From Pirellulales bacterium (GTDB lineage Bacteria > Planctomycetota > Planctomycetia > Pirellulales > Lacipirellulaceae), in assembly GCA_016930815.1 (NCBI GenBank), contig JAFGFZ010000083.1:1-44839 (forward strand): a stretch of 44,839 bases of DNA, read 5' to 3'. Below, piece by piece: positions 13,498-20,575 of this stretch. How positions within the stretch are numbered: position 1 is the stretch's first letter; every line of letters begins with the position of its first letter. The notes beneath the pieces were generated by a model. The model had not been told where the DNA came from, did no database searches, and saw only the letters and a list, made by a program, of their open reading frames with translations. A program made the position numbers and the translations under genes.

Positions 13498-14310
13498 CTA
13501 CCACCGCTCCCCCGGACGTCGCAAGATTTCATTCAGCAGGATGACCTGCTGCATCGACTCGGGACTCTGCAGCATCTTAACAATTGATTCGGCGAAAGGC
13601 GATGCCTCCTGTAGCTGGACATCACCGGGACTTAAAACCCGATGAACGAGGCGGCTGACCGAGTGATCGAATGTTTGCTGGAGATGCGATTCGAGTCGCT
13701 CGTCGGCATATGCGATATCTTCCCCAAGTTGCGAAGTCCTTGCTGCGAAGGAACTTGCGCCGATATGCTCGTTAACGTGTCTGGCCACGCCTCTTCCAAG
13801 CTCAGCGGCTGAATCATCCGGCTTGGTGGCAACGTGCGTTGGTTGGGTGCCCAGTTTTCCGACCTGGGGACGGGTGACGGCCACGGCAGGTCGCACGATG
13901 GCCGCTTCAACCGGTCGTCCCTTCTTGATTGGATCCGGGACGAGGACCTCGACCTCCTCCACCTGCCCCCGCTGACGTCGGTTTGCCGCTCGGCGGAGGA
14001 ACTCTTCGATCTCGTTGGCAATTGGATTTGGCACGGCCTGTTGTGGCCCACGAGCGGGTCGGGGGGCTGCACCAGGGCGGGGTTGGCCCGCCGCCGGTTG
14101 AGGCCGATCGATGGGGCGGGGTTGGCCTAATCCAGGTGGATGGCCGGGAGGACGAGGCGCCTTCGGAGGAGGTGCGGGACGTTCCTTCGCCTGTTGCTTG
14201 ATCCCGGCAATCTGCCCAATAAGCCAGATGACGAAAAGGACCGCACCTACGAGGAAACCCAAGATATCGCCAATGTCGGCTAGCATGGTTGGATCCGCGG
14301 GGATTAACAC
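13498..14310 (-). CDS. Hypothetical membrane protein with Pro-rich linker
   Basis: One N-terminal membrane helix (about 10-35: ADIGDILGFLVGAVLFVIWLIGQI) is followed by a Pro/Arg/Gly-rich linker (about 40-95). The C-terminal part is soluble and helical, ending PESMQQVILLNEILRRPGERW. The latter phrase, a helix that stops right before the terminus, recurs as an uncharacterised planctomycete pattern. The start is either GTG 14310 (GGAG 9 bases upstream) or ATG 14286. The gene lies 66 bp downstream of floA on the same strand, which hints at a role in the same membrane-domain system; that is inference only. Confidence 0.65.
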   Translation of the reverse strand: MLIPADPTMLADIGDILGFLVGAVLFVIWLIGQIAGIKQQAKERPAPPPKAPRPPGHPPGLGQPRPIDRPQPAAGQPRPGAAPRPARGPQQAVPNPIANEIEEFLRRAANRRQRGQVEEVEVLVPDPIKKGRPVEAAIVRPAVAVTRPQVGKLGTQPTHVATKPDDSAAELGRGVARHVNEHIGASSFAARTSQLGEDIAYADERLESHLQQTFDHSVSRLVHRVLSPGDVQLQEASPFAESIVKMLQSPESMQQVILLNEILRRPGERW

Positions 14311-14376: not shown

Positions 14377-15450
14377 CTACTTCCTGCTTGTCTTACCCGT
14401 ATTGGCAATCGTCTCACGCATTTCGGTATCGGCTTGAACGTTCTTCAACTTGTAGTAATCGAGAATTCCAAGCCGGCCACTTCGGAAGGCATCCGCGATG
14501 GCCTTGGGAACCTCGGCCTCCGCCTCGACCAATTTGGCTCGGCTCTCTTCGATGGTTGAGATGTTTTCCTGTTCGAGGGCTACGGCCATCGCCCGCCGTT
14601 GTTCGGCTTTCGCCCGCGCCACGCGTGTGTCGGCTTCGGCCTGATCGGCTTGCAGCCGGGCACCGATATTGTCGCCCACATCGATATCGGCAATATCGAT
14701 GGAAACGATCTCGAATGCTGTTTGCGAATCGAGCCGGCGTGAGAGGACTGCCTTGGAGATGGTATCCGGATTTTCAAGAACATGGGCATGCGTTTCCGAG
14801 GAACCAATCGCACTGACGATCCCCTCGCCAACACGCGCGACGATGGTCTCTTCGGTTGCCCCGCCGATGAGTTGGTCCAGGTTGGCCCGGACCGTGACGC
14901 GGGCTTGCACCTTGAGCTGAATCCCGTTCTTGGCAATGGCGTCGAGGGATGGGCGTTTGCTGCCACGTGCGGGGCAATCGATGACGCGGGGATAGACGCT
15001 TGTTTGAACCGCCTCCAGAATATTGCGGCCGGCCAGGTCGATCGCGGTTGCCTTTTTGAAACTGAGGTTGATAATTTTGGCCTTGCGGGCGGCAATCATG
15101 GAACGAATGACCAGAGGAACATTCCCGCCTGCCATGTAGTGGGCCTCCAAGGCCTTCACGGTAATCCCCTCATCATCCCCCAGACCCGCCTGGACGGCCA
15201 TAATCTTGCTCCGTGTAATGACGGACGGATTAACCTTGCGAAGTGTCATGCGAATCAGATCAAAAATTCCGATCCCGGCGCCGGTTGTCACGGATTGGAT
15301 CCACAGGCGGAAATACCGCGCGAAAACCGCAAAGATGATTAAAGCAAAGAGCAAAACAGCAACTAGAACAACTAATTCCCAGTTCTCGAACACAGCGAGC
15401 ACACCGATTGCCTTGACAGTGCCAGGTGCAATGGTCGAAAAAGCATCCAT
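14377..15450 (-). CDS. floA: Flotillin-like protein FloA
   Basis: The 357-residue protein matches the FloA/YqfA family along its length. It has an N-terminal membrane helix (about 25-45) and the family words [25 protein letters not shown]-like (here [17 protein letters not shown]), [27 protein letters not shown] and [24 protein letters not shown]. Then follows a Glu/Ala/Arg-rich coiled-coil region and the ending ADTEMRETI. Flotillins organise functional membrane microdomains. AAGGGG lies 8 bases before the ATG. NfeD-family genes upstream are the usual partners. About 180 bp without a gene separates it from the short NfeD gene. Confidence 0.95.
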
Positions 15451-15630: not shown

Positions 15631-16212
15631 TCAACCCAGTGAATCGTTGAGGGGCTCGATTCCAAGTTCATCGATCGGTTGGGTAAGGATATCGCCGGGG
15701 TGTTGGCCAGATGGGCGCTCATCTGGCGCGGCGGGACGGACCACCACCCGATTGCCACGGACCTCCAGGACAACGACCCGTTGTCCTGGATCGATGATGT
15801 GTCCCTGGCTGACGGCATCGATGGTCTGGCCATCAATTTCAATGGCTCCGCTGGGGAGCATTTTGCACTTGGCCACCCCGAATCGGCCAACCAGATCCTT
15901 CCGTTCATCCTCGGGCACAATATCATTTGCATCCGGTAATTCGCCAAGGAAGGCTTTCCCCATCGGTGTCATAGGCCAGTATTTGATCGTCAGGCCAAGG
16001 ACCACTGGAACCACGACGAGGGCCGTGACGACAAAAGAAAAACCGGCAATTGGGCCATAATGATAAAAAGCCAGGACAATCGAAGCGACGATGGATGTCG
16101 CGGCCAGAAATCCGAGAATACCGCCAGATGGGATAAAGAACTCCAATACGACTAATCCGCACCCAACCAGCATCAGGATGCCTGCCCAGTGAATTGGATC
16201 AAGAGCGTTCAT
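15631..16212 (-). CDS. Short NfeD-family membrane protein
   Basis: The 193-residue protein has three to four membrane helices in the first 85 residues (IHWAGILMLVGCGLVVLEFFIPSGG is the typical opening). A C-terminal OB-fold domain (about 115-180) follows, with LVGRFGVAKCKMLPSGAIEIDGQTIDAVSQG and GQRVVVLEVRGNRVVVRP. This is the NfeD-short form that works with flotillin/stomatin proteins, and floA is the next gene. Its ATG overlaps the stop codon of the long NfeD gene (ATGA), a strong sign of coupled translation. It lacks any protease domain. Confidence 0.92.
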   Translation of the reverse strand: MNALDPIHWAGILMLVGCGLVVLEFFIPSGGILGFLAATSIVASIVLAFYHYGPIAGFSFVVTALVVVPVVLGLTIKYWPMTPMGKAFLGELPDANDIVPEDERKDLVGRFGVAKCKMLPSGAIEIDGQTIDAVSQGHIIDPGQRVVVLEVRGNRVVVRPAAPDERPSGQHPGDILTQPIDELGIEPLNDSLG

Positions 16213-18449
16213 TGTGGGATTGATGCCTTGTCAGCCGGTCGAACCAGGATTCGGGTACCTTGAACGTGGATCACCTTGATTGGATGCCCACGGTCGATGG
16301 GATCGCTATCGGCGATGACATCGATGAGCTCTCCAGCGAATTCCCCCTTCCCGGAGGGACGCAGATTGGTGGAAGCCGTTCCGATCTGACCCAAGAGATG
16401 CGAAAGATCGGCGAGTGTTTCTCGGCAACCAATATCCTCCTGCTCCCCTGGGGGCGGTGGATTGAGTAGCAGCCGGTTGAACATCGGTGCCTGTGGTAAA
16501 AAGTGCCTGAGCAACATCGCGGCAACAATGACAAGGACGCCTGCTACTGTCAAGTTGGTCAAGGATTGGCGTAATTCGATCAGGTCCTTGGTATTGTGTG
16601 GCAAGAAACCGGCCGTTTGACTTGCCAGGATGAGCGAGATAATGACCATCAATCCGCCCCCCAGGCCAAAAATTCCAAAGCCGGGAATCACGAAGATTTC
16701 CAACAGGATAAAACAGGCCCCGCCGACAAAAAGGAGTACCTCGAGCCAATCGGCCGTACCTTGTAAAAAATTACTCCAGAAAAAAAGGAGAAATGCCACA
16801 CTGGCGATGAATCCACCAATGCCGATGCCCGGCGCATGCAACTCAACATACAAGCCGATGAACCCGATTGCCAGGAGCATCATGGCAAAGCCAGGCGAGG
16901 CGAGTGCTTGGACAAGATCAAGGGCCCAATTCGGTTTGACGACCCGGGGTGTTTCCTCCAAGTGATAAAAGTTGGCGAGGATCTCGACATTATCCGCAAT
17001 CTGCCAGGCGATTCCCAGTTTTTTTGCCGACTCGGCGGTCAATTCCCACGGCTTCCCATCCACGGTGAGCGCAGCATCCTGTTTCATCCAGGCGGCTGCA
17101 TCGGGCAATTCGTCCTTTTCTGCTTCGGAGAGGATTCGTTCGCGGCCGGTCTCTTTGTGCTTATATCGGAAGATCTCAAGATGAGGGTCCAGCATGGCGA
17201 GGGGGATGGACCAATCGCGTTTGGCGCCCTGGGCCAATCCGTTGGCGCTGCGAATCGATTCCCGCAAGGCGGCCAGTTGTCCAGGCTCCAGGGGTGCTCC
17301 GCCATCGCCGCCAATCCGCGACTCGGGACGCATCACGAGTTGATCGCAGGCCAAGGCAACCAGGGCTGCCCCCCCGGCCGCTTCCACGGTGACAAACGCG
17401 ACCGTTTGGACCTCCGCCGGATCCTGTTTTGCGAACAGGTCCGCCAATGCAAGGCAGTCCTTGATTTCACCACCTTGACTATTGATCCTCACACAGATCC
17501 ATCGCGTCCCGCGTGCCTTCTGTTCGCCAATCATCGTGCTGAATTGACTCACGGTTCGAGGCGTGATAGGGCCATCCAAGACCATGAGAATCGGCCGGAC
17601 TTCGCCAAAGAGAGCTTGATTTTCAACGACCGCGGTCGGCGGCAGATTGAGGGCGGCGGCGAGACTTTCGCGGTCGCTGACAAGAGCTTTGACAAAACCG
17701 AGCGAGCGGGCCTTGTTGGCCTCAAAGATTCCGAGTGAACCGCCGGCAATCAGTCTCTCCGGATCACCTAGAAAGGAATGGTTTTCCCGTAAGGTCTCGA
17801 GCTTTTCCTTGGACGCAAAATGCGTCTGGCCATCTTCGGTCTGGACCTTCCAGACCTCAATCGCCGGATCGACCATGCCAAGTGCAATCGGTTCCTCAAT
17901 CGTCCGCATCGCCCTTGCAATCTGTTCGTAGCCGGTCCGTACAATCGGACGGAGAGTTGCCCGGCCCTCTTCATCGATGCCTGCTTCCCCTATTTCAGCG
18001 TCAGGGGCCATGTAGATTTCCGCGCAGGCCATTGCGATGAGTACCCCATGTCCCTTGATGGTTTGAGGGAGATAGGCAACACATTTCGTACCGGCCAGTT
18101 CCGGACTGGTGAGATATTCCGCCAATTCATGCGCCGCGTGGAATGAACAGCTTTCTCCATATTTGGAGGACTCCATCGGCACCAGTTCCAGCAACAGAAT
18201 CGGACGTGTCCCGTCAATCCGCGTGGCGGGATCGAGCAAGCCGTCAACGGTTCTCTGAATGCGATCAATGGTTGCTTGGGCACTGGTTCCCGTAAGTGGA
18301 AGTGCGATTTGGACCAGGGCGCCACGATGGATCGAAGTGCCATCCGCCGCGATGGCAAAACCAGGTCCGAAGACGGCCCCCAAGATGCAAAGAGCTGCAA
18401 AACGCATCGCAAGAAGGATCGAGATCTTGGGATAGGACTTGCGGCGCAT
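16209..18449 (-). CDS. Long NfeD-family membrane protein with two ClpP-like domains
   Basis: With ATG 18449 the protein has 746 residues. It has a signal peptide (about 12-35), a first ClpP-like domain (about 80-260), a second (about 285-495), four to five membrane helices (about 512-650) and a C-terminal OB-fold (about 680-742). The two ClpP-like halves are an internal duplication: LGMVDPAIEVWKV near 190-201 pairs with LAMLDPHLEIFRY near 417-429. At the position of the catalytic Ser (SAGxxIAL in active NfeD) both halves show Gly: KGHGVLIAM (132-140) and AAGGAALVAL (357-366). The frame is open to 18842, but its first part has no export signal and looks non-coding. ATG 18497, with a G-rich stretch upstream, is another possible start. 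Confidence 0.85.
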   Translation of the reverse strand: MRRKSYPKISILLAMRFAALCILGAVFGPGFAIAADGTSIHRGALVQIALPLTGTSAQATIDRIQRTVDGLLDPATRIDGTRPILLLELVPMESSKYGESCSFHAAHELAEYLTSPELAGTKCVAYLPQTIKGHGVLIAMACAEIYMAPDAEIGEAGIDEEGRATLRPIVRTGYEQIARAMRTIEEPIALGMVDPAIEVWKVQTEDGQTHFASKEKLETLRENHSFLGDPERLIAGGSLGIFEANKARSLGFVKALVSDRESLAAALNLPPTAVVENQALFGEVRPILMVLDGPITPRTVSQFSTMIGEQKARGTRWICVRINSQGGEIKDCLALADLFAKQDPAEVQTVAFVTVEAAGGAALVALACDQLVMRPESRIGGDGGAPLEPGQLAALRESIRSANGLAQGAKRDWSIPLAMLDPHLEIFRYKHKETGRERILSEAEKDELPDAAAWMKQDAALTVDGKPWELTAESAKKLGIAWQIADNVEILANFYHLEETPRVVKPNWALDLVQALASPGFAMMLLAIGFIGLYVELHAPGIGIGGFIASVAFLLFFWSNFLQGTADWLEVLLFVGGACFILLEIFVIPGFGIFGLGGGLMVIISLILASQTAGFLPHNTKDLIELRQSLTNLTVAGVLVIVAAMLLRHFLPQAPMFNRLLLNPPPPGEQEDIGCRETLADLSHLLGQIGTASTNLRPSGKGEFAGELIDVIADSDPIDRGHPIKVIHVQGTRILVRPADKASIPQ

Positions 18450-18967
18450 ACAATTCGGCTGGCTCGGATCGTATCGATTACGCGATCCAACATGCATCTT
18501 TGCCACCCCCCGTTCACAGACGAACTGGACCATGGAATGGAAGCCCATTTGAAGCGTGCACGTGCGCGTAAGTCGATCTTGTGATAAATCTTCCTGTTTC
18601 TTTCCGGAATTATAGATCGAAGCCTGTCGTCGGAAAAGCCTTGTCTTACTGGCTGACCAGGGGATGAAAACCATCGGCTGCCAGTCCAGGCATTGGCAAA
18701 CCGACAAATGAAAAAAGGGTTTCTTGGGATCCGATTCTTTGGATCTTTTAGGGCAGATTGCCATTGCGATTTGTATTTCAAGGACTGGACGTTCCTGGAC
18801 TCGAAGCCCCCCATTGCACCAGGCATGCCATTCAGTTGCCAAATTCTTATCTCGTCCGTTATGATGGAGAGAGAGACGGAAAATCCGGTATATCGGCTAA
18901 ACAATATAAACAATAAAAATGCTACAATTGCCTTGAATGAAGGACCGGCGTTGGGAGTAGGGCAGGC
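18450..18967. other. Divergent intergenic region, NfeD operon / prenyltransferase-fold gene
   Basis: About 520 bp separate two divergent genes. Neither strand shows a convincing gene; the long - strand frame through it is an N-terminal extension of the NfeD reading frame without coding character. Both promoters should lie here. The A/T-rich stretch 18890-18935, with TACAAT near 18921, is a possible -10 for the + strand gene, but no matching -35 is clear. Confidence 0.45.
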
Positions 18968-20575
18968 ATGGCAAAGAATGACATCAACCACGATAATCCA
19001 ATGCCCTTGAAAGCGGCACCAATCCCCCATCCTGATGACGCCGCGGACCATCCAAAGAATCCCAAGAATCCAAGCCCGAATTCCGGGAATCAGCCATCCG
19101 AAGATGCGCTAGATGACCGGCACCTCCTGGTCCAGCTGTGGCGCGATAGTCCGAGCTGGCTATCCAGCCTCGTGATGCATATGGTCGTGCTCTTGATTCT
19201 TGCGCTCTGGATCATACCCGCACCGGAAGAGCCTGCAAGTGCGGAACTTCTGTTTTCTAAAACAGACGCTGAAGCGGACGCGCCGCAGGATATTGAAGAT
19301 CCGGACGATGTGCCGGATTTTAACCTGGACGAAGCCCTGGATGCCCCCCAGCCTGACACGGATATCATCGAGGATATCCCGAGTTTTTCACCGTATGATG
19401 ATATCGAGGAAGCTGCGGCATCCGTGGAGTTGGTTGAATTCGGCACCGAACTAGGCCCCGATAGTCTGCTGGGAGATGCCAGTGGTTTCGAAGGCAACGC
19501 CCTATCGGGCCGGGGTCATAAGGCCCGCAGCCGGCTGGTACGTCGCGGTGGGGGTGGAAAAGGGACCGAAGATGCAGTCGCTCTTGCCCTGAAATGGCTC
19601 GCTGCCCATCAGCGGGCCGATGGGAGTTGGAGCTTCGATCACCAACTGGGACCCTGCCAAGGCCGGTGCCCGAATCCAGGGAACCTTACGACGGCCTGCA
19701 ATGGGGCAACGGCCATCGCCCTCCTTCCGTTCCTCGGAATGGGACAAACACATCTGGAAGGGGAATACAAGGATGTTGTCCGGCGTGGATTGTATTTCTT
19801 GACACGATCCATGAAAGTCACCCGCAACGGGGGGAGCTTAATGGATGACGGCAATATGTACTCCCATGGCTTGGGATCGATTGTTCTGTGCGAGGCCTAT
19901 GCCATGACTCAGGATCGGAGCCTCCACCAACCCGCCCAACTTGCCTTGAATTTCATCGCCTATGCCCAGGATCCGGTTGGTGGTGGCTGGCGTTATCGGG
20001 TCCAGGAACCAGGCGATACCTCGGTCGTCGGCTGGCAGATCATGGCCCTGAAGAGCGGCCACATGTCCTACCTGACCGTACAAGCAAGCACGGTGCGCGG
20101 AGCATCCAAATTCCTCGATTCCGTTCAGGCTGAAAGTGGTTCGTTCTATGGGTATACCGAACCAGCACGACGGACTTCCACAACGGCGATTGGATTGTTA
20201 TGCCGGATGTATCTGGGGTGGAAACAGGATAATCCGGCACTTCAAGGGGGTATTGCGCATCTCGACCAAACAGGACCCAGTGATACCAATTTCTATTACA
20301 ATTATTACGCCACCCAGGTGATGTTCCAGTACACGGGTGGAAAGACCAGCAATCCGATGTGGGATCGGTGGAATACCAAGATGAAGAATCAACTACTGAC
20401 AACCCAAGCGAAAGAGGGACATGCGGCAGGGAGCTGGTTCGCTGGCAACGACCACTGCGTCCAAAAAGGCGGGCGACTCTACTGTACAGCCATGGCGGCA
20501 ATGATTTTAGAAGTCTATTACCGGCACATGCCCATCTATCGGGAAGAAGCAACCACCGATGATTTCCCGGAATAA
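18968..20575 (+). CDS. Membrane-anchored prenyltransferase/squalene-cyclase-fold protein
   Basis: The 535-residue protein has a short Pro-rich cytoplasmic N-terminus, one membrane helix (about 65-82: SLVMHMVVLLILALWII) and an acidic periplasmic linker (about 90-175). An alpha/alpha-toroid domain (about 200-510) follows with repeats such as ALKWLAAHQRADGSWSF and FIAYAQDPVGGGWRY. The W-x-x-x-x-Q-x-x-DGSW words are those of the terpenoid-cyclase/prenyltransferase superfamily. The DxDD acid motif of true squalene-hopene cyclases is not seen, so terpene cyclisation is not claimed. Planctomycetes carry many such anchored proteins of unknown role. GGGAG lies upstream of the ATG. Confidence 0.78.
   Translation: MAKNDINHDNPMPLKAAPIPHPDDAADHPKNPKNPSPNSGNQPSEDALDDRHLLVQLWRDSPSWLSSLVMHMVVLLILALWIIPAPEEPASAELLFSKTDAEADAPQDIEDPDDVPDFNLDEALDAPQPDTDIIEDIPSFSPYDDIEEAAASVELVEFGTELGPDSLLGDASGFEGNALSGRGHKARSRLVRRGGGGKGTEDAVALALKWLAAHQRADGSWSFDHQLGPCQGRCPNPGNLTTACNGATAIALLPFLGMGQTHLEGEYKDVVRRGLYFLTRSMKVTRNGGSLMDDGNMYSHGLGSIVLCEAYAMTQDRSLHQPAQLALNFIAYAQDPVGGGWRYRVQEPGDTSVVGWQIMALKSGHMSYLTVQASTVRGASKFLDSVQAESGSFYGYTEPARRTSTTAIGLLCRMYLGWKQDNPALQGGIAHLDQTGPSDTNFYYNYYATQVMFQYTGGKTSNPMWDRWNTKMKNQLLTTQAKEGHAAGSWFAGNDHCVQKGGRLYCTAMAAMILEVYYRHMPIYREEATTDDFPE

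Follow-up and report, generated by a model that had tools for sequence, protein, structure and literature searches.

The long NfeD encoded in a flotillin operon of this Pirellulales bacterium is an NfeD1b membrane protein and probably a pseudoprotease that serves FloA as a non-cutting module for client binding or assembly. The protein carries two ClpP-like domains in tandem, and the alignments described below give good support for both sites being catalytically dead. This dead tandem is a variant within the known NfeD1b type. Within the window, the whole stretch of 44,839 nucleotides that was analyzed, the operon and the parts of its first gene are as follows:

16209..18449 (-), long NfeD with a tandem ectodomain, NfeD1b type; 746 aa, read from ATG to TGA
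18345..18449 (-), signal peptide, residues about 1-35, hydrophobic stretch 9-27; this N-terminus has low confidence in the predicted model
17640..18323 (-), ClpP-like domain 1, residues 43-270; Gly133 in place of the Ser, Lys absent, His134 and Tyr174 invariant
18048..18053 (-), Gly133-His134 codons, the pseudo-active site of domain 1, conserved in 78/78 and 75/75 members of two overlapping Pirellulales sets
17928..17930 (-), Tyr174 codon, invariant in Pirellulales and mostly co-occurring with His134
16950..17594 (-), ClpP-like domain 2, residues 286-500; Gly359 and Gly390 in place of the catalytic Ser and Lys, loop before the Lys position shortened
17373..17375 (-), Gly359 codon, in the column aligned with PH1510 Ser97
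16470..16928 (-), NfeD membrane segment, residues 508-660 (PF24961), helices in the predicted model
16230..16397 (-), NfeD C-terminal OB domain, residues 685-740 (PF01957), beta strands 689-738 in the predicted model
15631..16212 (-), short NfeD (PF01957 and PF24961); its start codon runs into the stop codon of the long NfeD (ATGA)
14377..15450 (-), FloA flotillin (PF12127, E=8.7e-145; NCBIfam FloA equivalog, 492 bits)
13498..14310 (-), conserved fourth operon gene, matching no Pfam or NCBIfam family

The operon runs on the minus strand in the order long NfeD, short NfeD, FloA and conserved fourth gene, and the Pfam and NCBIfam matches place FloA two genes downstream of the long NfeD. The order of long NfeD, short NfeD and FloA is kept in most named Pirellulales loci with enough flanking sequence. 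The long NfeD reading frame stays open upstream of its ATG, as far as a TTG at 18842; the ATG at 18449, which yields a signal peptide, is a plausible start.

The original prediction, made from the sequence of the window, had described an internal duplication with two ClpP-like cores. The open reading frame, coordinates and motifs that it gave were all exact when the sequence was checked again, and the duplication is real: in a profile-profile comparison, domains 1 and 2 matched each other at E about 1e-32 over about 208 columns. Domain 1 matched single-domain NfeD at E=7.5e-33 and domain 2 did so at E=2.4e-51. The repeated halves span about residues 40-285 and 284-500, indicating that the whole ectodomain, beyond the ClpP core, was duplicated. 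PF25145 (NfeD1b_N) matched two stretches of the long NfeD (62.8 bits vs a cut-off of 40); domain 1 alone fell below this cut-off, with 67 of 78 relatives matching at E<=0.01. PF24961 (NfeD_membrane, 88.6 bits) and PF01957 (44 bits) both scored above cut-off, and PF01343 (S49) fell below it (15 bits vs 24.9). The parts that characterize an NfeD1b protein are therefore present, namely a ClpP-like NfeD1b_N domain, a membrane segment with an OB domain, and an operon shared with FloA.

The predicted structure is in keeping with this architecture. AlphaFold2 gave a mean pLDDT of 88.5 for the full protein, and of 93.4 with a pTM of 0.90 for domain 1 alone. Foldseek matched both models to 1510-N and SppA, with E. 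coli SppA as the best match of the full model and enoyl-CoA hydratases also among the matches of domain 1. The full model superposes on SppA in the PDB with an rmsd of about 21 A, suggesting that the relative placement of the domains is either unlike that of SppA or not reliable.

The residues on which cleavage by PH1510 depends are missing from both halves. In PH1510, S97A, K138A and deletion of the L2 loop each gave an inactive protein, and both residues and the loop are needed (PMC3795559). When a profile of the relatives was compared with 2deo, 3bpp and 6m4b, the Gly359 column fell opposite PH1510 Ser97 (E about 1e-8), and profile-profile alignment put Gly133 at the same catalytic Ser of single-domain NfeD. 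The catalytic Lys is gone from both halves, where Thr165 (domain 1) and Gly390 (domain 2) occupy its position. In addition, the loop before the Lys position of domain 2 is about 9 residues shorter, leaving 31 residues between the Ser and Lys positions compared to medians of 39-40 in forms that keep the dyad. Neither the loss of the Lys partner nor the shortened loop was part of the original prediction. A short loop, with a Ser-to-Lys spacing of 30-34 residues, was found in 53 of 75 Pirellulales domain-2 copies, compared to 36-44 in single-domain forms. Both marks of an active NfeD1b serine protease, the Ser-Lys dyad and the L2 loop before the Lys, are thus lacking. The claim of a protease-dead tandem is supported, as no Ser or Lys occupies the catalytic positions of either half and none of the 75 sampled Pirellulales tandems has the pair. 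Position 359 in Pirellulales is Gly, Ala or Ser (with one Cys). A Ser stands at this catalytic point of domain 2 in 8/75 and 20/78 Pirellulales tandems (two overlapping sets), never with the Lys alongside, and the reading of the protein as protease-dead stands.

Relatives were sampled within the phylum. A contig search returned no matches with a single protein as query and did return matches with an alignment as query. A match to the query was present in all 60 relatives and in all 149 sampled class members; the tandem form occurs in every sampled family of Planctomycetia and is not unique to this genome. Across the order, 277 of 297 genomes had a match to the tandem profile, though weak matches there may be short NfeD. 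Pirellulales genomes that do not match the tandem NfeD profile belong to family f17 and genera g292, g294 and g317, where gene loss is possible.

Domain 1 lacked the Ser in every tandem seen. Domain 2 had both Ser and Lys in 14 of 111 class tandems, which came only from families f21 (13/13) and f102 (1/1); the count was 0/75 in Pirellulales, 0/9 in f99, 0/8 in f100, 0/3 in f101 and 0/2 in f103. Single-domain paralogues within the class kept Ser-Lys in 12/12 cases. Elsewhere in the phylum, single-domain forms had Ser-Lys in 14 of the first 15 and in 35 of a further sample of 40. Single-domain long NfeD proteins at four loci elsewhere in the phylum (L270, L272, L295 and L296) apparently do not have the pair, suggesting that sporadic loss occurs.

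A quick tree placed the class-wide domain-1 copies in one supported clade, pointing to a probable single duplication within the class. The tandems of other parts of the phylum seem to be of separate origin; five outside the class (L078, L079, L093, L271 and L273) have domain-2 Ser-Lys intact and a domain 1 without Ser. In a tree of domain 2 with the membrane and OB parts, the f21 tandems grouped with single-domain Ser-Lys paralogues, and the dead groups were scattered. A single shared dead clade was disfavoured (AU p=0.0235), which is moderate evidence because the group was named after the tree was seen. Since the dead groups are not a single clade, loss of the domain-2 dyad probably recurred. 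It had been proposed that the two halves lost their nucleophiles in parallel. Both did lose the dyad, but the loss was not simultaneous: it came later in domain 2, apparently more than once, and the dyad survives there in f21 and f102. The sequences thus show a probably single duplication of the NfeD ectodomain, no later than the base of Planctomycetia, with loss of Ser and Lys from domain 1 throughout the sampled class and a later loss of both from domain 2 in most lineages, this one among them. We also considered a strict rule by which FloA-linked copies are dead and unlinked copies live. This rule is broken by Ser-Lys single-ClpP forms that lie beside FloA elsewhere in the phylum and by two f99 loci that are dead without an adjoining FloA.

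Several known systems resemble the tandem in part. PH1510 (1510-N, STOPP) and other NfeD1b proteins share with it a ClpP-like ectodomain, a membrane segment, an OB domain and an SPFH-type operon partner, a likeness seen by both sequence profile and fold. PH1510 has one ectodomain with a Ser97-Lys138 dyad and an L2 loop, whereas the protein described here has two ectodomains, no dyad and a shortened loop in domain 2. The f21 tandem of the same class has two ClpP-like domains, the same order of parts and a domain 1 without Ser, but it differs in its domain-2 dyad and full loop, and none of the six genomes inspected has it next to FloA. A pair of ClpP-like domains in a single membrane-bound chain is also the build of E. 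coli SppA, of peptidase family S49. The two halves of SppA share out one functional Ser and one functional Lys, one residue to each half, whereas the long NfeD has neither; an SppA-like split active site was ruled out, as half 2 has no Ser and half 1 no Lys. ClpR and other inactive ClpP-fold subunits have, like the tandem, kept the ClpP fold and lost the catalytic residues. These subunits are soluble, belong to rings and pair with active ClpP (PMC6508832), whereas the tandem NfeD is one chain in the membrane, encoded in an operon with flotillin. A literature search, with most subscription journals outside its scope, found no description of a tandem or dead form of NfeD.

We propose that the dead ectodomain holds its clients without cutting them. 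Based on the signal peptide, both ClpP-like domains would lie outside the cytoplasm. PH1510 acts as a homodimer in which one peptide is held in a shared tunnel, suggesting that domains 1 and 2 may form an intramolecular pseudo-dimer. This pseudo-dimer could hold hydrophobic or unfolded segments of membrane clients with no cleavage, and the membrane helices and OB domain, together with the translationally coupled short NfeD, could dock the module onto FloA. The long NfeD would then be no protease but a holdase, or a factor that helps flotillin microdomains assemble. The nearest experimental parallel is in Staphylococcus aureus, where NfeD is a binding partner of FloA and contributes to the holding of unfolded proteins, but that NfeD is different from the tandem long NfeD (PMC11222466). 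A scaffold or binding role for FloA and the short NfeD, as the original prediction suggested, would be consistent with this report and with the conserved operon.

Other explanations of a dead tandem were weighed against this one. The long NfeD could be the non-catalytic member of a complex with an active long NfeD from another locus, in the manner of ClpR with ClpP. Some Pirellulales genomes have a second long NfeD with a single ClpP domain (L061, L062, L063, L064, L141, L144 and L146-L149); the Ser-Lys pair was intact in all 10 sampled, and these paralogues lie away from FloA in the loci looked at. However, a Ser-Lys copy was found in only 4 of the 60 relatives and no second long NfeD was found in the source genome, the assembly of which is 89% complete, and we consider such pairing quite improbable. 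The idea that the ectodomain is a decaying remnant, and that just the membrane and OB parts matter, draws on the lower mean entropy of the membrane (1.42 bits) and OB (1.54 bits) parts compared to domain 1 (1.90 bits) and domain 2 (1.98 bits). This explanation is very improbable, since the open reading frame is kept in 20 families with neither domain truncated, both domains contain invariant residues, and their folds are predicted with confidence. Entropy and retention of the reading frame indicate that both halves remain under purifying selection. The chance that domain 2 or domain 1 still cleaves peptides through another residue is slighter still. Conserved Cys142 and Cys368 each lie 9 residues past the Ser position, and in some relatives position 359 is a Ser with an Asp behind it, or position 358 is a Ser. 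However, Cys is ruled out as a replacement nucleophile because the same Cys is equally common in Ser-Lys forms, Ser at 359 always occurs without the Lys, and position 358 is variable.

Conservation within domain 1 raises one more alternative. In an alignment of 78 Pirellulales rows (the query and 77 named loci), Pro51, Ala110, Ala125, Gly133, His134, Leu137, Gly154 and Tyr174 were invariant in this domain, His134 and Tyr174 being its only fully invariant polar residues. His134 directly follows the former nucleophile position, and Tyr174 is in the helix past the former Lys. It is conceivable, though in our estimation unlikely, that domain 1, and perhaps domain 2, was rebuilt as a ligand-binding or catalytic site centred on these residues and not merely silenced. 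Consistent with such a site, His134 and Tyr174 are present together in f100, f102, f103 and one f101 row and are mostly both replaced in f99 and f21. However, the coupling held in 3 of 4 independent pairs, which is not significant (p=0.25), one f21 row pairs the His with Ile in place of Tyr174, and the two residues may simply fill the emptied pocket. An equally tentative extension is that Gly133-His134 and Tyr174 of the dead first half became a new conserved site that serves flotillin microdomains by binding a ligand, a metal or the end of a peptide, with proteolysis repeatedly abandoned in the FloA-linked copy.

The non-cutting module for FloA remains our preferred explanation. The sharing of a dead form across a large order, in the FloA operon, with relatives in the class that have the dyad, suggests that the NfeD-flotillin partnership can do without proteolysis. 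The matched natural forms, with and without the dyad, are nature's own test of whether NfeD has to cut proteins to work with flotillin. In addition, annotation of such genes as "protease" is likely wrong for most of the class Planctomycetia.

Other features of the genome were recorded along with the operon. An anti-phage defence role was rejected, as there was no PADLOC match. A second FloA gene of the same genome (G000:C226:15277-16173) lies away from the NfeD operon. The fourth gene (13498-14310, -) is kept after FloA in many Pirellulales loci. A divergent gene with weak squalene-hopene-cyclase-like repeats (18968-20575, +) adjoins the NfeD operon in L175, L178, L179 and L185.
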